Assembly: GCF_012849095.1 (NCBI RefSeq)
Contig: NZ_CP051680.1
Coordinates: forward strand, 5,704,001-5,768,000
Source of the DNA: Cohnella herbarum
GTDB taxonomy: Bacteria; Bacillota; Bacilli; Paenibacillales; Paenibacillaceae
DNA length: 64,000 nt
Direction: 5' to 3'
Both the position numbers and the translations under genes were made by a program. Shown piece by piece: positions 14,497 to 24,622 of the stretch. Numbering within the stretch: position 1 is the first letter of the stretch; each line of letters starts with the position of its first letter. The notes beneath the pieces were generated by a model, which worked only from the letters and a program-made list of their open reading frames with translations, was not told where the DNA came from and searched no databases.

Positions 14497-16293
14497 TTAC
14501 TTTCTCAACGCGGCGGCAGGCTCCGTACGGATTAGCTTGTAGCTGGCTAAGATGCTAATTAGAATAACAACAACGCCTGTGGAAATTATGGATAGTAAGA
14601 TTTGTAATGGCGTAATGATAATGGCTACATCGAAGATCATACCGATTAAATAAGTACAGCCAACGAGGACAGCATTAAAGATAACCGACATTGCCGATAA
14701 AAGCAGATTTTCGCTGACAATTATTCTTCGTATAGTTCCTCGATTAAAACCCAAAGCGGACAGCAGCCCGATTTCCTTATATCTCGAATTTTGCAGCTTG
14801 ATGAGCAATACCGTACTGATAGATAAACCAATAGCTAAAATTAAAATAGAAACAATTAGGAACAATCGGTTAAGACCTTTGAATGTGCTTTGCAAAGCTC
14901 CGACTTCTTTAGCCGAGGTTTTACTATCGATGTTATGGTCGGCAAGCATTTGACTGACTGCAACGATATCTTCAAAGTCTGTTACATCGTAACTAATGGA
15001 ATAGCTTTTTTCTTTATCCGCATTTATATATATTTCCTTTTCAATATCGGAGCTTACAAAGAAATCATCGTAGCCTGCATTATAAATGCCGCTGATCGTA
15101 AGCATGTATTCTTTTTCGCCATATTCTAAGGCAAGTTCTTTACCAAGCAAGTTACGAATATCCTTTTCGAACTTTTTGGCAAGGCTCGGACTAAGCGCGA
15201 TTTCCTGTTCGCCTGCTTTGGGCATAGTACCGTAAGACATACTTTCAGTAGCTTTTGGCTGAGGGTATTTTTCTGCCATAACCTCGGTTTTATCTCCCAG
15301 CCTTAGAGTAACATCCGTTATTTTGTATTGATTATAAACATTTTCGATTCGCTCATCGGAATTCAACAATTCATAAACGGTTCCGTCATCCTCGCCTTTG
15401 ATATAGCCGTTGTTATAGGCGGTGTTTTTATCCTTAAAGTCCGAAATCGACTCCTCCATCCTATTCCCCGAAGATAAAGACAACATAAACGCAAGGATAC
15501 CAATGGAAATGGCCAGACTGACAGCCATATAGCGTATGAGATGAACATTGAAGTTTTTAAGTCCTCGCTTGAACGCAGAACCTTTGACAGTCTTATTTAA
15601 GCTGAGTACAGGTTGATCGGTAAGATCTGTTCCAGCATCGATCCCTTTGGCAATCATTTTTCCGTTCTCGATATGGATGACTTCATCCGCAAAGCTGCAA
15701 ATCTTCTGATCGTGAGTAATGACAACAACCAAACGGTCTTTTGAAATCTCTTTTAAGAGCCCCATCAGTTCGTTTGAGTTGCTCCGGTCTAGTGCTCCCG
15801 TCGGTTCATCGGCCAATACTATGCGAGGATTACGAATCAACGCTCTCGCAATTGCGGCTCTTTGCTTTTGACCGCCCGAAAGATTTTCGATTTTGGCATC
15901 CGTCTTTTGCGATAATCCCAGTTTATTTAACAGCTCTTTGGCATTTTTTCTATTTTCCTCTTCGATCGAAGGATTTAGCTCACATGCAAGCAAGATGTTT
16001 TCGAGTACGGTATATCCGCTGAGCAGATGGTAGTTTTGAAAGACAAATCCGATATGGTCTCTGCGATAGGCACACAGTTCATCGGCGTTCAGTTTGCCGA
16101 TCGAAGTCCCCCAAACCGTAATGTCACCGCTGTATTGGCTGTCAAAGCCTGCAAGTAGATGAAGCAGAGTGCTTTTACCAGAGCCCGATGCACCAAGTAG
16201 GCATATAAGTCCTTTGCTGGGTAAAGTAAAGCTTGTATGATTAAGAATTAGGGTATCATCATATCTTTTGCTAAGGTTATGGATCTGAATCAT
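14497..16293 (-). CDS. ABC transporter, fused ATPase-FtsX permease (MacB-like) 2
   Basis: A 598-residue fusion. The N-terminal NBD has Walker A GASGSGKST, signature LSGGQKQRAAIARAL and Walker B IVLADEPTGALD. The C-terminal FtsX/MacB permease has one membrane segment after the NBD, a large extracellular domain of about 220 residues, and three further segments near the end (LFLIVSILILAIGLSI, LLLSAMSVIFNAVLVG, ILLSIISTGVVVILISILAS). It overlaps the preceding gene by one base (TAATG), so the two are translationally coupled and probably form one heteromeric pump. Such pumps export peptides or lipids or sense membrane-active antibiotics with a partner two-component system, as here. Confidence 0.9.
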   Translation of the reverse strand: MIQIHNLSKRYDDTLILNHTSFTLPSKGLICLLGASGSGKSTLLHLLAGFDSQYSGDITVWGTSIGKLNADELCAYRRDHIGFVFQNYHLLSGYTVLENILLACELNPSIEEENRKNAKELLNKLGLSQKTDAKIENLSGGQKQRAAIARALIRNPRIVLADEPTGALDRSNSNELMGLLKEISKDRLVVVITHDQKICSFADEVIHIENGKMIAKGIDAGTDLTDQPVLSLNKTVKGSAFKRGLKNFNVHLIRYMAVSLAISIGILAFMLSLSSGNRMEESISDFKDKNTAYNNGYIKGEDDGTVYELLNSDERIENVYNQYKITDVTLRLGDKTEVMAEKYPQPKATESMSYGTMPKAGEQEIALSPSLAKKFEKDIRNLLGKELALEYGEKEYMLTISGIYNAGYDDFFVSSDIEKEIYINADKEKSYSISYDVTDFEDIVAVSQMLADHNIDSKTSAKEVGALQSTFKGLNRLFLIVSILILAIGLSISTVLLIKLQNSRYKEIGLLSALGFNRGTIRRIIVSENLLLSAMSVIFNAVLVGCTYLIGMIFDVAIIITPLQILLSIISTGVVVILISILASYKLIRTEPAAALRK

Positions 16294-18237
16294 TATCGGT
16301 CACCTGTCTTCAAGGCTGTGATTGTATGGGTCTTTAGGATGGCGATAGCTGTCGTAAAGTAAGCCGCGACGGCTGCTAAAGCAATCAACAGCGCCCCCGT
16401 TAATAACATCTTTGAATTAAGAATACTTGCGTTAAACAAGCCTTTGGTAGCTACATTGATAAGCGGCGATGCAACAAGCATTAACAGGATCGCGGTAATG
16501 GTTTCGGAGATCCTATCCGTCAAGTTAAGCAAGCTCAAATGAGCATTGTGAAAGCCGCTGACTTTATAAATCGCAAATTCTCTTCTTCTCATAAAACCTG
16601 TGATAAGGAAGACGGCAATCACCATAACGACAGCTAAAACGCCTATGATCACGCTAGAAGAGCCTGACTGTTCGGTTGTTTGCTTATTTAATCTAACGAT
16701 ATCCTCGACAAGCTCGAATCTTCCAAGAGGGACAATGCCATCCTCGTTAAGCTCGTCTTTAATCGAAATCATATCGGCAGGAGTCTTGGCACGGATAATA
16801 AAGTTGATGTTGTTATTTTTAATGTCTGCCTGCCGTCTCAGATCGTCAAGCGCGACCTTGCTGAAAAAGAAGGCATCATCGACGGAATACTCCTTCAATT
16901 CCCCTTGATAGTCATAATAGACGGTCGTATCTGCAACGCCGACTATGGTTGCGGTTATGGACGCGTCTTTTTTAACGGGCTCGCCGGTGTCCCAATTGTA
17001 CATCGTGCTGCTAAAATCAATTTCTTTCCCTATAGCTTGCTCGTTCGATAGTCCCAATGTTTTAACGAAACCTTCCGGGACAACAACCTCGTTAACTTTG
17101 CCCATCGGCATTTTTCCCGCTAACAACTTGTTGATTGAAGGAGTACTGCCTGTGCTTTGTACTTGATATTGTTTGCCGCCAACCGTTAATTGGATATCAT
17201 TAAACGCTTGTGAAAAAGCCGTAAAATCAACACGCTTATCGCCGATATATTGCTCATATAATCCGCCAATATCCTGCGTGACGTCAGCGTTCGGCTTTTC
17301 TTCCTGATTGCCGTCCGTTCCCCCCGCGCTCATAAAACTGCCAACGACGCTAATATCTTTGAGTCCTTCGCCATACGTATTAATCAGCTTGTCAAACTCG
17401 CCTTGACTGCTATCCCCGATTGTCCCGCTTACGGTTGTAAGACATAATACTCCAGCCACCATTAGAGCCAGGGTGGATACGATAAATCGCCCGAATTTAC
17501 TTTTAACATTCGTTTTGGTGAGCGTACAAGCTTTTTTGATAGATAAGGAATGACTTTCATCGTATTTAGGATTTGCCGTTATCGTTACGATAGGTTGCGG
17601 TGATGCAATCAACTCTCCTTTATCCAAGCTTATTAGGTTTGATTTATTATCAATCAGATTGGTATCGTGGGTGACAACGATAACCGTCCTGTTTTTAGCG
17701 ATAGCTTTCAGAATATCCATTGTTGTTTTCGCGGTTTTTTCGTCCAAGGCGCTTGTTGGCTCGTCAGCAATGATTACTCGCGGATTTTTCATAAGCTCTC
17801 TTGCGATGGCAACGCGCTGCTTTTGACCGCCGGAGAGATATTTCACTTTTTTGCGTGCGAGGTCAAATATTCCGAGGTCTTTTAAAATGGTTTCAGCGTT
17901 CTTTTGATTCCCATTGTTCTTTAGATACTGGGGTAACAACACATTGTCTAAGACCGATAAATCCTCGAGCAAATTAAAGTCCTGCCAAATAAATCCGAAA
18001 ATATGGTTGTAATAATAGCTTTTTTCGTTGGGATTTAAATCTTTAATGCTCTTGCCGCAAAAATAAACTTCGCCATCGTAATCTTGTTCCATGCCGCTGA
18101 CGATTTTCAGAAGAGTCGTTTTTTCCGCTGCCCGAAGCACCGACTATAAAATTTAATCCTTTCCCGATTGAAAAGGAAATATCGTTCAAAGCGATTTCGC
18201 CGTTATATTGTTTGGTCACGTTCTTGATTTCAAACAT
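16293..18237 (-). CDS. ABC transporter, fused ATPase-FtsX permease (MacB-like) 1, frameshifted in Walker A
   Basis: The gene reads from ATG 18237 (SD AGGAGG at 18253-18248) as MFEIKNVTKQYNGEIALND up to the Walker A GASGSGK. It then shifts frame in an A6 run (18124-18119) and continues as TTLLKIVSG...SGGQKQRVAIARE...VIIADEPTSALD and an FtsX permease to 16293. Removing one A restores a 648-residue protein with every NBD motif. As written, translation from 18237 would stop early. The rest of the gene shows no decay, so this is either a very recent mutation, a homopolymer sequencing error, or slippage. It pairs with the gene at 14497 and is driven by the TTAACA-type promoter at 18251-18302. Confidence 0.85.
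18119..18124 (-). other. Frameshift site: A6 homopolymer in the Walker A codons
   Basis: Six A residues on the coding strand follow GGC AGC GG. Five would keep the motif GSGKTTLLK in frame; six give GSGKNDSS and an early stop. The shift needed is +1. Confidence 0.85.
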
Positions 18238-18250
18238 TTGTTTTGTTCCT

Positions 18251-18302
18251 CCTAAACTTGATGCAACCATCGTATAACAATCGATGTTAAATCCCTGTTA
18301 AG
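18251..18302 (-). promoter_or_regulatory. TTAACA-type promoter, copy 1 of a 52-bp repeat
   Basis: On the minus strand: TTAACA (18301-18296), 5 bp, TTAACA (18290-18285), 10 bp, then -10 TACGAT (18274-18269). It is 49/52 identical to 22659-22710. It drives the two ATPase-FtsX genes. The paired hexamers with 11-bp periodicity are the kind of site OmpR-family regulators bind, and they equal the B. subtilis PhoP-box consensus. The predicted transcript starts about 25 bases before ATG 18237. Confidence 0.72.
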
Positions 18303-18340
18303 GAGCAAAGCTTCATTAGCGTAAGGTAATGATTCCAAAC

Positions 18341-18370
18341 AAAAGGGCAACCCCAAAAAGGGTGCCCTTA
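18341..18370 (-). terminator. Terminator after the solute-binding protein gene
   Basis: Minus strand AAGGGCACCC pairs with GGGTTGCCCTT around a T-rich loop and runs into TTGTTT. It splits the minus-strand block into two transcription units. Confidence 0.75.
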
Positions 18371-18423
18371 AAATTCGCAAAATGGAATGTTACGTTTTAG
18401 ATAGCTCTATTAGGACGTTCTAT

Positions 18424-19770
18424 TTACTCGTTAATGTAAGTGTTGACTCGGTTTTGAATCAGCTTGCTAACATCTTCAACTGATTTCTGGCCGCTCATAT
18501 AGGAATCAAATTCTTCAACCGCAATGGAAACGACCTTGAAATCACTAGATAAATTCGTACTCGCCCCCTCTATGAGCTTTTGCAATTCTTTAATCTTGCT
18601 TTCTACTGTATTAGCATCAACCTTCTGTCCAAGAAGTGTACCCGCTACTGCCTGCTGCTTGGCATCCTTGAGCTGTTTCTCCACAACTCCCTTATGCAAT
18701 GCAAAGCCTCCTACCATTGGCGTAGATTGCATATCCTCGGAAAGCATGAACTTAATAAAATTCCAAGCTTCATCTTGAACTTTAGACTTGCTGTTCATGC
18801 CTAAAGTGAAATACGACTTAAATGGCGTTCCGTTATTTTGTCCATTTACAGTTGGCTTTTTATAAATATTAAACTTGGGATCAAGGACTTGAGCCAAGCC
18901 TGTTGTTGGATCTAGGAGGTTAGCATTGTTGAACAAGGATTCGGAATATTCGATAGGTTCGGCGCTGAGATCACCTTCATCATACATCGATTTGATTTGC
19001 TTCATCATATCTCGAAACAGGTCGGAATCGAAATTGGCTTGACCTTGATCAATGAGCTTATCATAATTAGACTCTATATACTCAGATAACAGTTGAGTTG
19101 GGAATAGATTACCAAATGTGGCATAATCCCCACTAACGTGTTCCTTAAACTTCTTTGAAATTGTTTTGAACTCATCCCATGTCCAGGTCTGATCATCGAT
19201 TTTACTGTTAGCTTGTTTTAACAACTCTTTATTCCCAGTAAACGCGTCAAGGGCAAATGAGAATGGCATAGCATACAAACCATCTCCATTCTGGGAGTAT
19301 TTAAAGATATTCTGATAGTACTGATTTCGATCAAATTTAGAGTCTTCATCCATTAGATCATAGAAATTAACCAGCATGTTCTTGGCAACATATTTGTCCT
19401 TCGGCAGTTCATTCATTACGATAATGTCTGCCCCTTTGCCAGACATCAACTGCGTGCTGACCGTTTGTACATATTTCTCGATATCGCCTTTTGTTAAGGG
19501 CTCAGTCGATGTATTTTCCTCCGTTTGAGGTGTCGCTTTATACTCTTTAACTTCAATGTGGATATCTGGACGGATTTTTTTATATTGCTTAATGGCTTCA
19601 TCCAAATAAGGATTTGCCGACATCATTGAAATCTCAATCGTTGTGCCATCTTGACCTGAATGTTCATTAGATGACCCTCCTCCACCTGATCCCACGTTAC
19701 TGCTAGAGCATCCCGATAATACGACTACCAATGCTAATAAGGCCAATGCCCATCTTCTCTTCAAATTCAT
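18424..19770 (-). CDS. Extracellular solute-binding lipoprotein (carbohydrate ABC type)
   Basis: A 448-residue lipoprotein. The signal peptide ends in the lipobox VLSGC with Cys21 as lipid anchor, then a Gly/Ser linker. The body is a family-1 solute-binding fold (SMMSANPYLDEAIKQYKKIRPDI start; GADIIVMNELPKD; DEFKTISKKF; EAWNFIKFMLSEDMQ near the end). Sugar and oligosaccharide binders have this layout. It lies downstream of an efflux-type adaptor and two sugar-type permeases, and no ATPase of the MsmX/MalK type is present, so a shared ATPase elsewhere is likely. The ligand is unknown; sensing or scavenging rather than simple sugar import is possible given the neighbours. Confidence 0.88.
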   Translation of the reverse strand: MNLKRRWALALLALVVVLSGCSSSNVGSGGGGSSNEHSGQDGTTIEISMMSANPYLDEAIKQYKKIRPDIHIEVKEYKATPQTEENTSTEPLTKGDIEKYVQTVSTQLMSGKGADIIVMNELPKDKYVAKNMLVNFYDLMDEDSKFDRNQYYQNIFKYSQNGDGLYAMPFSFALDAFTGNKELLKQANSKIDDQTWTWDEFKTISKKFKEHVSGDYATFGNLFPTQLLSEYIESNYDKLIDQGQANFDSDLFRDMMKQIKSMYDEGDLSAEPIEYSESLFNNANLLDPTTGLAQVLDPKFNIYKKPTVNGQNNGTPFKSYFTLGMNSKSKVQDEAWNFIKFMLSEDMQSTPMVGGFALHKGVVEKQLKDAKQQAVAGTLLGQKVDANTVESKIKELQKLIEGASTNLSSDFKVVSIAVEEFDSYMSGQKSVEDVSKLIQNRVNTYINE

Positions 19771-19779
19771 TCATTCCCT

Positions 19780-20886
19780 TCAATAAATTCGGATTCGATT
19801 ACCTTCCTGCAGGGGTTCACTTGATTCAATAATGATCTCATCCTGTGGACTTAACCCGCTCACTGCTACGACTTCATCCTCGGTTGAATCACCTGTTAAA
19901 ATATAAGCTTTGCGTGCATTGAACGTATTGCCGAGTGAGCTTTTCTTCTCCTCAACGACATAGACGTAGCTTCCAGTTGCATCTTTATGAACCCATTTCT
20001 TTGGTAACGCAAAACCTTTTTCATTCGATTCCTTCTTTATATCTAGACTTACTTGTTCCCCGCCTTGAATTCCATCATCGGTGATGGAAACGACAACCTG
20101 ATAACTGGATTCTTCGGTTGAATCTTCACTATTTTCTTTCGTTGCTACTACAATCTCTTGAATGGTACCGTTAACCAATCTATTATCTTTTACCAATCGA
20201 ACGGAAACCTGAGACCCGATCTCGAATAATGCCGTATTCCCCGAATCGACAGCAAATAAAAATTCGAAGCCTTTGCCACTATCCATAAGTGTCAGTATTG
20301 CCCCGCCTTGTGAGGCATTCATGCTGATCTCTTCTGTAATCTTTGTAACTTTGCCATCAAAGGGGGCAGTCAGCGTTTGCTTGTCCGCCTTTTCTTTACG
20401 CAGCTTATTCAATTTTCTTTGCGCGATTTCAAGATCCATGTTATCCAGTTCAAAATCTCGCTTAGCTTTGTCAATGGCTTGCTCATCACCATCTCGAAGC
20501 GCAATCTTTAGGTTCTCCTTCAACACCTCCCGATTCATATTTTGCTTTTTCAGCGCCATTTCCTCTTGGTATAGCTGCTCATCCAGTTCAGAGCTGTCGA
20601 ATGTCACGAGCTTCTGACCCTTCTTTACCTCATCATTCTCTTTAACATGAATCTTCAAAATTTTAGAGCCACTCTCATTCAGCAATTCCACCTGCTTTCG
20701 CGGCGTAAGGACTCCACTCCCGTTAACATGATGGACCAATGTTTTAGAAACAAGCTTCTCCGTAATCACTTTGGGCAGCATCATCGTTTCGAGTGTGCTA
20801 CTAAAGAAAGTCAGGCCGGCCAATATCGCGAAGAACAATATAAACAAAACAGCCGTTAAACGTTGTCGCTTAGATATGCTTGTCAT
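19780..20886 (-). CDS. Membrane-fusion/periplasmic adaptor protein, MacA/HlyD-like
   Basis: A 368-residue adaptor. An N-terminal membrane anchor (about 11-28) precedes a lipoyl-type half-motif (NGSGVLTPRKQVELLNESGSK, EVKKGQKLVTFDSSEL). Next come an alpha-helical hairpin at about 105-165 (coiled-coil, Lys/Glu-rich), the return lipoyl half (LTAPFDGKVTKI) and beta-barrel and membrane-proximal domains (DGIQGGEQVSLDIKKES, ALPKKWVHKDATGSYVYVV). In Firmicutes such adaptors partner MacB-like FtsX permeases (the YknX role), and two of those lie downstream. Finding it between sugar-type permeases and their binding protein is unusual. Confidence 0.88.
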   Translation of the reverse strand: MTSISKRQRLTAVLFILFFAILAGLTFFSSTLETMMLPKVITEKLVSKTLVHHVNGSGVLTPRKQVELLNESGSKILKIHVKENDEVKKGQKLVTFDSSELDEQLYQEEMALKKQNMNREVLKENLKIALRDGDEQAIDKAKRDFELDNMDLEIAQRKLNKLRKEKADKQTLTAPFDGKVTKITEEISMNASQGGAILTLMDSGKGFEFLFAVDSGNTALFEIGSQVSVRLVKDNRLVNGTIQEIVVATKENSEDSTEESSYQVVVSITDDGIQGGEQVSLDIKKESNEKGFALPKKWVHKDATGSYVYVVEEKKSSLGNTFNARKAYILTGDSTEDEVVAVSGLSPQDEIIIESSEPLQEGNRIRIY

Positions 20887-20896
20887 CTCATTCCCC

Positions 20897-21760
20897 CTAT
20901 CCTTTAATTCCAGAAAGTTCTATGCCCTCAATAAAATACCGTTCCGCAAGAAGAAACAAGAGAATCATAGGCATCATATATAAGACCGCAGCAGCAAAGG
21001 ATACCCCTAGTGCATCTTCCTGCAAGCGAGATAGGAAAATGGACAAGGGCTGTAAAGCGGCATCCTGTAGAAAGACCAGCGGCTGCTCCACCATATTCCA
21101 GTAATCTGCAAACAGCAGAACAACCAGCGCTGCCATGCCAGGTTTCACCATAGGCAGGACGATCGTGACAAAGGAACGGAAATAGCCCGCCCCGTCCATT
21201 TTCGCAGCTTCCATATAAGCATTTGGAATCTGGAGCATAAATTGTCTGAGCAGGAACACGCCAAACGCTGCAAATATTCCTGGTAAAATAATGGAACTCG
21301 GGCTATTAATAAGCCCCAATCGATCAGACATGATGTAATTCGGCACAAGTGTGACCTGAAACGGCATGAGCATAGTGATCAGATACACAATAAATAATGA
21401 CTCTCTGCCAGGAAAACGCAGCTTCGCAAATGCAAATGCCGCTAATGTTGCCACCACGACCTGACCTATAATAATTGGAACCACCATAAATACAGAATTC
21501 CAAAACATACGAAGAAATTGCGAGGTTGAAATAAGTACCTTGAAAAATTGCTCGAACGAAACCCAATCTGGAATCAGCTTCAAATTCGCAAAATCATTTA
21601 CCTGCGTACTCCCCAACATGCCGTAATTCAGCATAATTTCCTTCTCCGTCATCACGGAGCTTACAATTGTCAGTACAACAGGAAACAGCATAACAAGTGC
21701 GATTACGGTTAAGAAGATCGTGAGTAGCAGTGTTCTTACCTGTATCTGTTTCTTGTTCAT
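20897..21760 (-). CDS. Carbohydrate-type ABC transporter permease (MalG-like)
   Basis: A 287-residue permease with six membrane segments and the EAA loop in the form EAAKMDGAGYFRSFVTIVLPMVKPG, which docks the ATPase. It is MalG-like in length, in the order behind the MalF-like gene, and in its ending (RYFIEGIELSGIKG). SD GGGGAGG lies ahead of ATG 21760. It forms a heterodimer with the product of 21775-22656. Confidence 0.92.
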   Translation of the reverse strand: MNKKQIQVRTLLLTIFLTVIALVMLFPVVLTIVSSVMTEKEIMLNYGMLGSTQVNDFANLKLIPDWVSFEQFFKVLISTSQFLRMFWNSVFMVVPIIIGQVVVATLAAFAFAKLRFPGRESLFIVYLITMLMPFQVTLVPNYIMSDRLGLINSPSSIILPGIFAAFGVFLLRQFMLQIPNAYMEAAKMDGAGYFRSFVTIVLPMVKPGMAALVVLLFADYWNMVEQPLVFLQDAALQPLSIFLSRLQEDALGVSFAAAVLYMMPMILLFLLAERYFIEGIELSGIKG

Positions 21761-21774
21761 CTATAGACCTCCCC

Positions 21775-22656
21775 TTACTCCATAAATGAACGGAACTTTC
21801 GTTCAACGCTGAAGAGCATCAGTACAATAACTAAAATGCAGAGCACCATCAAGCATGCTGCAGCCGACAGCTTCTGAATATCGAGCGATAAGAACATATT
21901 GTTCATATAGTGCTGGAGCATATAGATGCTGTCATGTGGATAGTCACCCGCAACCAAATAGATTTCCCGAAATACCTTGAATGAGTTCAGAATCGACATC
22001 AGCATAACTAAAAATCCGGTCGGTATTAAATAAATCAAGGTGATCTGCAGCTTACGAGCCCAGCTTGCTCCTTCCAGGTTTGCTATCTCGTAATATTGAT
22101 CAGGGATATTTTGCAAACCGGCCAAGAATAGAATCACGTTATAGCCAATGTTTTTCCATACATAGATAACGATAATGACTCCTTGCGCCCACTCTGATTT
22201 CATCCAATCGATCCGATCGATTCCAAGCCACTCCAATACATGATTAAAAAAACCATTCCAATCGAATAGGATCTGCCATACGAGGACGATCGAAGCTACT
22301 GGAACAACCAGTGGTAGTACATAAGAGGTGCGCAGCCAGTTTCGAAAGAAGACTCGTTTGTTAAGCATCACGGCAAGGGCAAGTGACAATACAATTAGAA
22401 TGGGAACGCCAATAATAGTAAACCAGAACGTATTCCCCATTGCCTTTTGAAAGGATGAACTGGCTAATAGGCTCTCATAATTGGCAAGCGACAACCCTGC
22501 CTCTCCGCTTGGATTCTCAAAAGAAAAAATAATACTTTGACCAAACGGAATTAAATAAAATAGAGCAAAACCAATTAAGCTCGGAGCAAGGAAGCAGAGA
22601 GCCACAAGAATCTCCTTGCGAGCCAAAATTGATAATCTCACAGCATCACCATCCAT
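21775..22656 (-). CDS. Carbohydrate-type ABC transporter permease (MalF-like)
   Basis: A permease of 293 residues from ATG 22656, or 288 from GTG 22641, which has the better SD (GGTGAT). It has six membrane segments (FLAPSLIGFALFYLIPFG first) and the EAA-like loop NLEGASWARKLQITLIYLIP. It is first in the minus-strand block and lies directly behind the second TTAACA-type promoter (22659-22710), whose predicted transcript start is only about 15-30 bases from the start codon. Confidence 0.9.
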   Translation of the reverse strand: MDGDAVRLSILARKEILVALCFLAPSLIGFALFYLIPFGQSIIFSFENPSGEAGLSLANYESLLASSSFQKAMGNTFWFTIIGVPILIVLSLALAVMLNKRVFFRNWLRTSYVLPLVVPVASIVLVWQILFDWNGFFNHVLEWLGIDRIDWMKSEWAQGVIIVIYVWKNIGYNVILFLAGLQNIPDQYYEIANLEGASWARKLQITLIYLIPTGFLVMLMSILNSFKVFREIYLVAGDYPHDSIYMLQHYMNNMFLSLDIQKLSAAACLMVLCILVIVLMLFSVERKFRSFME

Positions 22657-22658
22657 TT

Positions 22659-22710
22659 CCTAAACAAGATGCAACCATCGTATAACAAACGATGTTAAAT
22701 CCCTGTTAAG
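22659..22710 (-). promoter_or_regulatory. TTAACA-type promoter, copy 2 of a 52-bp repeat
   Basis: Same layout as 18251-18302: minus-strand TTAACA (22709-22704), 5 bp, TTAACA (22698-22693), 10 bp, -10 TACGAT (22682-22677). Three of 52 bases differ between copies. It drives the sugar-permease/adaptor/binding-protein genes. Confidence 0.72.
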
Positions 22711-22737
22711 TGATTTTCATTGGTGTGAATAAAATGC

Positions 22738-22770
22738 TTAACACTGATTTAACACATACTTAGGTACAAT
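22738..22770 (+). promoter_or_regulatory. TTAACA-type promoter of the two-component system
   Basis: TTAACA (22738-22743), 5 bp, TTAACA (22749-22754), 10 bp, -10 TACAAT (22765-22770). Spacing is identical to the two minus-strand copies although the surrounding sequence is unrelated, which argues for shared regulation. A poor -35 fits an activated promoter. Confidence 0.72.
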
Positions 22771-22791
22771 AGTAAAAGAGGTGATTTGCAC

Positions 22792-23481
22792 ATGAGGATC
22801 CTTATTGTAGAGGACGAGCTTGATTTGCAGGAAGCGATTGCAGATGGGCTTAGAATAGAGGGTTATGCCGTTGATACCTGTGACAACGGTGAAGCCGCTT
22901 ACGAGCTTTTATTTGAAGTAAATTATGACTTGGTCGTACTTGACTTAAACCTTCCGAAAATGGATGGGCTTGAGGTTTTAGCAAAGATACGAGATGAAAA
23001 GCCCGAGTTGAAGGTACTTATTCTCAGTGCCAGAAGTAGCGTTCATGACAAAGTAAAAGGGTTAGATATAGGGGCAAACGATTATTTGGCGAAGCCGTTT
23101 GATTTTGCCGAGCTGGAAGCAAGAATACGGAATTTGTTAAGGCGAAAGTTTGTGCAAGAAAGCAGTATGCTTTCCAGCGGTGCAATTAAAGTCGATTTGT
23201 CAAAGCGTATTGCACTTGTTAATGAGAATGAGATCTCGCTTACAAAAAAAGAATTTGCATTGCTTGAATACTTCTTGCTTAACAAGGATAGGGTGGTTAG
23301 CCAAGAAGAACTGATTGAGCATGTCTGGGATCAGAATGCGGATAGCTTCAGCGGTGCTATTCGAGTTCATATCGCCACTCTCCGAAAGAAGCTGAAAGCT
23401 ATTTTAAGTTATGACCCCATTGGAACGAAAATCGGCGAAGGATACTGGTTGTCGGATAAGGGGGGCGATGTGAATGCTTAA
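22792..23481 (+). CDS. OmpR/PhoB-family response regulator
   Basis: A 229-residue two-domain regulator. The receiver has the acidic pocket (VEDE), phosphoacceptor Asp51 (VVLDLNLPKMDG) and a Lys in AKPFDF. The winged-helix output domain is typical (EISLTKKEFALLEYFLLNKDRVVSQEEL, then VRVHIATLRKKL-like IRVHIATLRKKL). ATG 22792 follows the SD AGAGGTG; a TTG six bases earlier is less likely. It overlaps the kinase gene by eight bases. It probably binds the TTAACA pairs in its own promoter and in the two transporter promoters. Confidence 0.93.
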   Translation: MRILIVEDELDLQEAIADGLRIEGYAVDTCDNGEAAYELLFEVNYDLVVLDLNLPKMDGLEVLAKIRDEKPELKVLILSARSSVHDKVKGLDIGANDYLAKPFDFAELEARIRNLLRRKFVQESSMLSSGAIKVDLSKRIALVNENEISLTKKEFALLEYFLLNKDRVVSQEELIEHVWDQNADSFSGAIRVHIATLRKKLKAILSYDPIGTKIGEGYWLSDKGGDVNA

Positions 23482-24622
23482 AAAAATGTCAATTCGACTG
23501 CGACTTACGGTTATGACCGTAGCGCTTTTGACAGTTTGTTGCGTTGGTCTTACTTTCATACTTAATATTTCTGCGGATACAATGGCTACAAAGATTGATG
23601 CAACCTTGATATTACCGGCAAAAGAGGTCGGCGAAGATGGACGGGTTAATGAAAGCCCTCAATCACCGGCAATCGGCATAATATCTCCTGTTCCCTCTGT
23701 TGATTCTCAAAGAGCAAGAATGGATTTTAGAATGGACAGCATAATATATATGCTCTTAGTTATTATTGGCGGCGGATTCTTAACCTATTACATTTCGGGC
23801 AAGGCATTAAAACCTCTTGATATGCTAAATACTCAAGTGAAAAACATAAATGTGCATAATCTATCGGAAACATTATCCGTGCCGCCTACAAAGGATGAAA
23901 TCGCGGAGCTTACCGTCACGTTTAACGAAATGACGGATAAGCTGGATAATGCTTTTATGATGCAAGCCAGATTTTCCGCAAGTGCGGCCCACGAGCTTAG
24001 AACGCCTCTTGCCGTGTTGCAAACAAAGGTTGATGTATTTAAGAAGAGAGAAGATCATACAAACGAGGAATACGACGCTCTTATTTCCGTTATCGAAAAG
24101 CAAACGAGTCGCTTGAGAGGACTCGTCGGCAACCTGCTGGACATGACGAATATGGACGACAACGGAGAGCAAAGCAGCATTTGCGTAAAGGATATTTTCG
24201 AGGAAATGATTTCCGAGCTTGATCACATAGCAAAAGATAGACATGTCACGTTGAGCTTAGATTGCGATAACAGCATGGTTACCGGAAATATCGACTTACT
24301 GTATCGTGCTTTTTACAACCTTGTGGAAAACGGCATTAATTACAATGTTGACGGAGGCAAGGTTGAAGTCGTTGTAAATAGATTAAGTAAGGATCAGGTT
24401 TCAATCCAGATTAAAGATACAGGCATCGGCATTGCCGAAACGGATAAAAAGCATATCTTGGAGCCTTTTTATCGTGCGGACCAATCACGCTCCCGACAAA
24501 TGGCCGGTGCTGGCTTAGGGCTTACGATTGTCGACAGCATTATGAAAAAGCATCGAGGTACGCTTACGGTTACCGACAATGAAAATGGCGGAACTTGCTT
24601 TCATGTCATCTTGAATGGGTAA
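23474..24622 (+). CDS. Sensor histidine kinase with HAMP domain
   Basis: A 382-residue kinase. Two membrane segments (about 12-32 and 88-107) enclose a short extracellular loop of about 55 residues. A HAMP linker precedes HisKA with His173 (AAHELRTPLA) and HATPase_c (N box NLVENGINYN, G1 DTGIGI, G2 GAGLGLTIV). The small sensor loop suggests it senses through a membrane partner, possibly the FtsX-type transporters encoded divergently, as Bce-type systems do. Confidence 0.92.
   Translation: MLKKMSIRLRLTVMTVALLTVCCVGLTFILNISADTMATKIDATLILPAKEVGEDGRVNESPQSPAIGIISPVPSVDSQRARMDFRMDSIIYMLLVIIGGGFLTYYISGKALKPLDMLNTQVKNINVHNLSETLSVPPTKDEIAELTVTFNEMTDKLDNAFMMQARFSASAAHELRTPLAVLQTKVDVFKKREDHTNEEYDALISVIEKQTSRLRGLVGNLLDMTNMDDNGEQSSICVKDIFEEMISELDHIAKDRHVTLSLDCDNSMVTGNIDLLYRAFYNLVENGINYNVDGGKVEVVVNRLSKDQVSIQIKDTGIGIAETDKKHILEPFYRADQSRSRQMAGAGLGLTIVDSIMKKHRGTLTVTDNENGGTCFHVILNG

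Follow-up and report, generated by a model that had tools for sequence, protein, structure and literature searches.

The closest described counterparts of the promoters considered here are those of the streptococcal regulator CiaR, which have been searched for with the fixed geometry TTTAAG-N5-TTTAAG-N10-TATAAT; most of them are activated by CiaR, and 15 such promoters were reported in S. pneumoniae (consulted sections of PMC3091779). A CiaR-like box of Bacillus, the BAS0540 type, reads NTTAAG-N5-TTTAAG (consulted sections of PMC4938410). Here, we describe three promoters of related design in Cohnella herbarum (Paenibacillaceae), all located in a 64,000-nucleotide stretch of its genome (RefSeq assembly GCF_012849095.1, contig NZ_CP051680.1, positions 5,704,001 to 5,768,000; referred to below as the window). 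Each consists of TTAACA-N5-TTAACA followed, after 10 bases, by a -10 hexamer. Site 1 precedes ABC1, the first of two adjoining genes for fused ATPase-permeases (ABC1 and ABC2), site 2 precedes permF-permG-HlyD-SBP (two permeases, a periplasmic adaptor, and an extracellular solute-binding lipoprotein, SBP), and site 3 precedes the gene of an OmpR-family response regulator. Sequence comparison indicates that these sites are very probably the operators of that regulator and its adjacent two-component system.

With CiaR, as described in the sections of PMC3091779 referred to above, the locus shares the direct hexamer pair, the N5 spacer, the N10 distance to the -10, the targeting of both own and linked genes, and the type of regulator, the local protein having a receiver domain and a C-terminal winged helix (Trans_reg_C) with a kinase gene alongside. 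It differs in the hexamer, which is TTAACA at all sites instead of TTTAAG with its essential final G, in the number of promoters (3 sites in the genome versus 15), and in the recognition helix (VEVYVSKVRKKL / VVEVYVSKVRKKL in CiaR versus IRVHIATLRKKL in the local regulator). Likewise, the BAS0540-type box (same sections of PMC4938410) is similar in its N5 direct repeat and in targeting its own promoter, but has another hexamer and a scattered predicted regulon. In the open-licence literature, we found no published TTAACA direct-repeat regulon, no MacB/FtsX proteins described with two-component systems in Paenibacillus, and, in the parts of the sources consulted, no description matching units of HlyD with sugar permeases. 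The regulon is, in short, of a known OmpR-family direct-repeat promoter type, of which this member is new.

The observation of three sites was confirmed: the identical hexamers and the identical spacing to the -10, as claimed in the sequence-only reading, were verified for all coordinates and strands. The pattern TTAACA-N5-TTAACA-N10-TAnnnT has exactly three matches in the window and none in 100 shuffles of it. A genome scan for further such promoters, which that reading had proposed, returned only the three known sites in 8.52 Mb (8,522,788 bases; none with the reversed-pattern control), all within one 4.5-kb stretch, while allowing one mismatch added two scattered matches (control, one). Without the -10, the bare pair TTAACA-N5-TTAACA occurs six times in the genome, three of these being the sites themselves (control, zero). 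A chance origin of the sites was ruled out by the shuffles, by their uniqueness in the genome, and by the hexamer permutations reported below.

This distribution also bears on the idea that the sites are boxes of WalR (YycF) on the opposite strand, serving cell-wall control. Indeed, their reverse complement, TGTTAA-N5-TGTTAA, fits the WalR/VicR box TGTWAH-N5-TGTWAH (consulted part of PMC4168254), and reverse-strand TTAACA-type pairs are found among the predicted YycF sites of S. epidermidis (consulted part of PMC5405149). However, a WalR regulon would be expected to be scattered, whereas the full sites number only three and share one locus, and the genome has just six bare pairs. The box of PMC4168254, as far as the consulted part describes it, differs from that of the window in strand, -10 spacing, and regulon, and WalR control would account neither for the constant spacing to the -10 nor for the box's association with the local regulator. 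Since, in addition, the local regulator is not WalR, the genome's own WalR-like regulator being only ~33% identical to it (helix TVDVTIRRLREKL versus AIRVHIATLRKKL), we consider this explanation extremely improbable.

Sites 1 and 2 are part of a repeat; the 52-bp copy noted earlier (49/52 identical) is contained in a best ungapped segment with 50 of 53 positions identical. Because of this repeat, and because target promoters of relatives also share spacer and leader, the two sites are related by descent. It could therefore be argued that they merely represent a duplicated promoter segment, to which site 3 bears a chance likeness. Site 3, though, lies outside the repeat and, as had been claimed, has unrelated flanks; what it has in common with the other two is limited to the hexamers, the spacings, the GAT at the end of N5, and part of the -10. 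Shuffling predicts no exact matches at all, and the evidence from relatives, presented next, argues against both duplication and chance, leaving this reading with hardly any probability.

Loci for that comparison were chosen by similarity of the regulator, independently of the motif: from 80 loci kept, we took the window and the 21 loci (L044 to L064) with a regulator at least 65% identical. With a site defined as at most one mismatch plus TAnnnT 10 or 11 bases farther on, these 22 loci contained 40 sites, whereas each of 12 permuted hexamers gave 0 or 1. Seventeen sites are located before the regulator gene (in 17/22 loci), 22 are located before linked targets (in 18/22 loci), and a single one is found elsewhere (L058:438). 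Both claims made from the sequence alone, namely, control by the local OmpR-family regulator and a functional, rather than copied, match at site 3, are supported by these counts, the box being retained before regulators in differing flanks; a pure repeat copy is ruled out for site 3 on the same grounds. Moreover, the site moves with its target when the gene differs or the order changes (L057, L058, L059, L060, and L064). Downstream of the kinase gene and on the same strand, L057 and L064 have the ABC pair, with the site in between; in L058, L059, and L060, that position is taken by a gene for a small secreted protein, again with the site in between, and an FtsX permease gene is similarly arranged in L058. 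Comparable arrangements include a site before a secreted-protein gene beyond the kinase gene (L054) and separate sites before a lipoprotein gene and before ABC1 (L048).

Further support comes from sites that changed together. In L062 (Oceanirhabdus), TTTATA is the second hexamer at all three sites upstream of genes (regulator, redoxin-type lipoprotein, and ABC1; a fourth match there is weak and intragenic), and TTTACA occurs at both sites of L066. This covariation of target and regulator sites, which duplication or chance would not explain, is the trace expected if one regulator binds all sites. Of 295 family genomes searched, 8 have a regulator at least 89% identical, and the exact pattern was found in 7 of these. 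Conversely, a search of the same 295 genomes starting from the motif gave 47 exact sites in 37 genomes (17 with the reversed control), and 18 of the 29 motif-first loci of other genomes (L010 to L038) contained a relative of the regulator. In L053, where the boxes have two mismatches each, most of ABC1 is gone, as if the regulon were decaying.

The box also follows the recognition helix. Among 97 regulator loci, a site within 300 bp was present in 19 of the 28 with an RVH-helix regulator and in 1 of the 69 others, counts in which relatedness among loci was left and in which the others include 40 with an unrecognized helix, many from G+C-rich phyla (K-for-R class, 1/21). The 97 exclude L129 and L130, which duplicate L053 and L061, and L145 (the same protein); L124 to L128 were omitted as well, and L108, L142, and L143 yielded no match that could be used. 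Of 60 arrangements of its six letters, TTAACA matched 20 loci and the next best matched 2. Upstream of L138, L146, and L148 (K-type helix) and L149 (helix unrecognized), we observed TTAAC[CT]-N5-TTAAC[CT] pairs, at two mismatches, which suggests that the final hexamer base varies with the helix.

An 11-bp period of TTAACA-like hexamers is also characteristic of the B. subtilis PhoP box, and the sequence-only reading had accordingly offered phosphate control as an alternative, with the three promoters belonging to the phosphate regulon. The box itself was not found in the passages of PMC4415409. The likeness is one of hexamer and period, and the local regulator is not PhoP: it shares 33% identity with the PhoP encoded in the same genome, whose helix is TVDVHVSSLRKKL versus AIRVHIATLRKKL in the local protein. 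The 20 kb surrounding pst and phoPR in the C. herbarum genome contain no site within one mismatch of the box; the three perfect sites are all found at one unrelated system, and presence of the box tracks the local regulator across genera. Cross-binding may still occur, as five TTAACA-type pairs with two mismatches lie in those 20 kb, one of them before pstS. PhoP control is thus disfavoured, and we regard it as very unlikely.

Several observations weigh against control of all these sites by one local regulator. A box with at most one mismatch is missing before the regulator in L044, L053, and L062 (two mismatches), in L063, and in L064; L063 has no site even at two mismatches, and L064 has none before the regulator at that threshold. 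Target sites in L053, L061, and L062 are found only at two mismatches, and none is found in L063. While N10 is kept at target promoters, N11 is found at the regulator promoters of L047, L051, L054, L055, and L056. L071 has a site beside a regulator lacking the RVH helix, and for the sites of L029 to L035 no relative of the regulator was found within the 3-kb loci. Finally, the relatives are not mutually independent, and we infer the direction of control from position only.

As for the mechanism, activation by a head-to-tail dimer beside RNA polymerase appears likeliest. The phosphorylated regulator would bind TTAACA-N5-TTAACA as such a dimer on one face of the DNA; placed over the -35 position and ending 10 bp upstream of the -10, it would hold RNA polymerase at a promoter without a good -35. 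In fact, the boxes do overlie the -35 position, and a sigma-70 consensus scan of 18150-22850 yielded six promoter-like sites, all away from the three boxes. We favour activation because the geometry is that of CiaR, because CiaR activates most such promoters, and because consensus -35 and -10 elements are lacking at the boxes. If the regulator were instead a repressor, released from the three boxes by its signal, the overlap with the -35 position would allow it to block the promoters; yet no site has a consensus -35, and the N5/N10 geometry is that of CiaR-activated promoters (consulted sections of PMC3091779), such that repression seems unlikely. Binding, activation rather than repression, phosphorylation, and the signal are all features that we infer. 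Activation by the local regulator would then drive its own gene from site 3, permF-permG-HlyD-SBP from site 2, and ABC1-ABC2 from site 1; the last would need a promoter of its own because it lies behind a likely terminator, a hairpin that was missed by a pattern-based terminator scan and seen by folding. The two target promoters would be copies of one ancestral target promoter, and the regulator promoter would be an independent instance of the box. Coordinates are collected in Table 1.

Table 1. Promoter sites, repeat copies, and genes at the C. herbarum locus (positions in the window)
Feature	Position	Strand	Remarks
Site 1, box and -10 before ABC1	18301-18269	-	TTAACA gggat TTAACA tcgattgtta TACGAT; counterparts before ABC1 in relatives
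Site 2, box and -10 before permF block	22709-22677	-	TTAACA gggat TTAACA tcgtttgtta TACGAT; likewise before permF of L045, L046, L049, L052
Site 3, box and -10 before response regulator (predicted autoregulation)	22738-22770	+	TTAACA ctgat TTAACA catacttagg TACAAT
Repeat copy 1 (box, -10, ABC1 leader)	18250-18302	-	50/53 identical to copy 2
Repeat copy 2 (box, -10, permF leader)	22658-22710	-	50/53 identical to copy 1
OmpR-family response regulator	22792-23481	+	Response_reg and Trans_reg_C above cut-off; recognition helix ...FSGAIRVHIATLRKKL
Sensor histidine kinase	23474-24622	+	HAMP, HisKA, HATPase_c
permF, MalF/UgpA-type permease	21775-22656	-	BPD_transp_1; start ATG, or GTG five codons inside as in relatives
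permG, MalG/UgpE-type permease	20897-21760	-	BPD_transp_1
HlyD / RND_mfp-type periplasmic adaptor	19780-20886	-	TIGR01730 above its cut-off
Extracellular solute-binding lipoprotein (SBP)	18424-19770	-	SBP_bac_1
Terminator-like hairpin, between SBP and ABC1 promoter	18343-18369	-	Fold -21.5 kcal/mol, z -3.5
ABC1, fused ATPase-permease, MacB-like	16293-18270	-	ABC_tran; MacB_PCD below cut-off; open frames 18043-18270, 16293-18140
ABC2, fused ATPase-permease	14497-16293	-	ABC_tran and FtsX; MacB_PCD below cut-off

The transporter genes had been described as one hybrid block. The block consists of two sets of different origin, namely, the MacB-like ABC pair and the MalFG-HlyD-SBP unit. Similarity to MacB-type ABC exporters (5nik and others) extends over residues 16-277 of ABC2, which also has an FtsX domain; the window differs in having two adjoining fused ATPase-permeases, and in a Gram-positive bacterium. 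The ABC1 frame is broken within the ATPase domain in the window and unbroken in L044, L050, L057, L058, L062, L064, and L205, and the break may represent an assembly error or decay.

The second set combines sugar-importer permeases with an exporter-type adaptor, has no ATPase in the unit, and is common in the family. HlyD relatives (E values up to 1e-30) were found in 127 of 290 family genomes, and since relatives of permF, permG, and SBP adjoin the adaptor gene in all 30 loci examined (L175 to L204, window included), the four genes form a unit. In all six loci fetched with more flank (L205 to L210), this unit is transcribed divergently from a second OmpR-family system (RR2/HK2); no TTAACA site was found at the unit promoter, even with two mismatches. 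In the window and in L045, L046, L049, and L052, on the other hand, the unit directly follows a TTAACA promoter. No RR2 relative exceeding 45% identity (E values up to 1e-50) was found in the genomes of the latter four loci (as a group, G182, G129, G194, and G198). In the window genome, the best RR2 relative (64% identical) matches a second-copy paralogue at 77% identity and is therefore not cognate. Apparently, then, the regulation of the unit was rewired by promoter capture in the window and four relatives, the permF block having presumably belonged to a different two-component system, now missing, before its capture behind a TTAACA promoter.

Traces of that event may still be visible. Homology between the two kinds of unit begins at the ribosome-binding site and start of permF. 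The permF leaders of L045, L046, L049, and L052 contain an ATG-tat-like stretch that resembles the FtsX gene start of L047, and the same stretch is present in the ABC1 leaders of L051, L054, L055, and L056; it can be read as the fossil of a displaced gene. ABC2 (E values up to 1e-100) is absent from G182, G129, G194, and G198 and present in G000, G041 (same genus as the window genome), G241, and G287; within the comparison set, L050 is from Cohnella endophytica. Both gene sets are behind TTAACA promoters in only one of the 22 loci, the window, while in G241 (L205) they are side by side with the unit under RR2. On balance, we lean toward a scenario in which the unit lost its link to RR2/HK2 and, by capture, came to lie behind the TTAACA promoter belonging to an unrelated system, with an FtsX-start fossil in some relatives; the promoter would then have come to be present twice in the window, one regulator driving both the unit and the MacB-like pair, and RVH regulators would constitute a subfamily using the TTAACA-N5-TTAACA code across several genera for unrelated targets.

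Two further groups of loci concern the wider use of the box. In L011 to L023 and L163, the regulator is ~46% identical, and a conserved TTAACAAGGATTTAACA promoter precedes a thioredoxin-like gene and, after it, a DsbD_TM (CcdA-type) gene; taken together with the redoxin and Fer4_5 targets of L062, this group hints at thiol redox as a theme. L029 to L035 (genus g6) have TTAACACCAAATTAACA sites with the -10 at N10. The genes behind them include one for a UgpC-type ATPase and one for a sugar-binding protein, and a single genome has as many as three exact matches; the box may be used there by a different regulator.

With a specific operator and a full predicted regulon of three promoters in the genome, an uncharacterized two-component system would become better defined. 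The rewiring, however, is the more surprising part, and it is a well-resolved case: one transporter unit, placed under two different two-component systems and with breakpoints at base level, would amount to a natural experiment in regulatory evolution. Across its relatives, one regulator family would appear to have used one DNA code with exchanged targets, among them the MacB-like ABC pair, FtsX with an ATPase, secreted proteins, redoxins, and the MalFG-HlyD-SBP unit.

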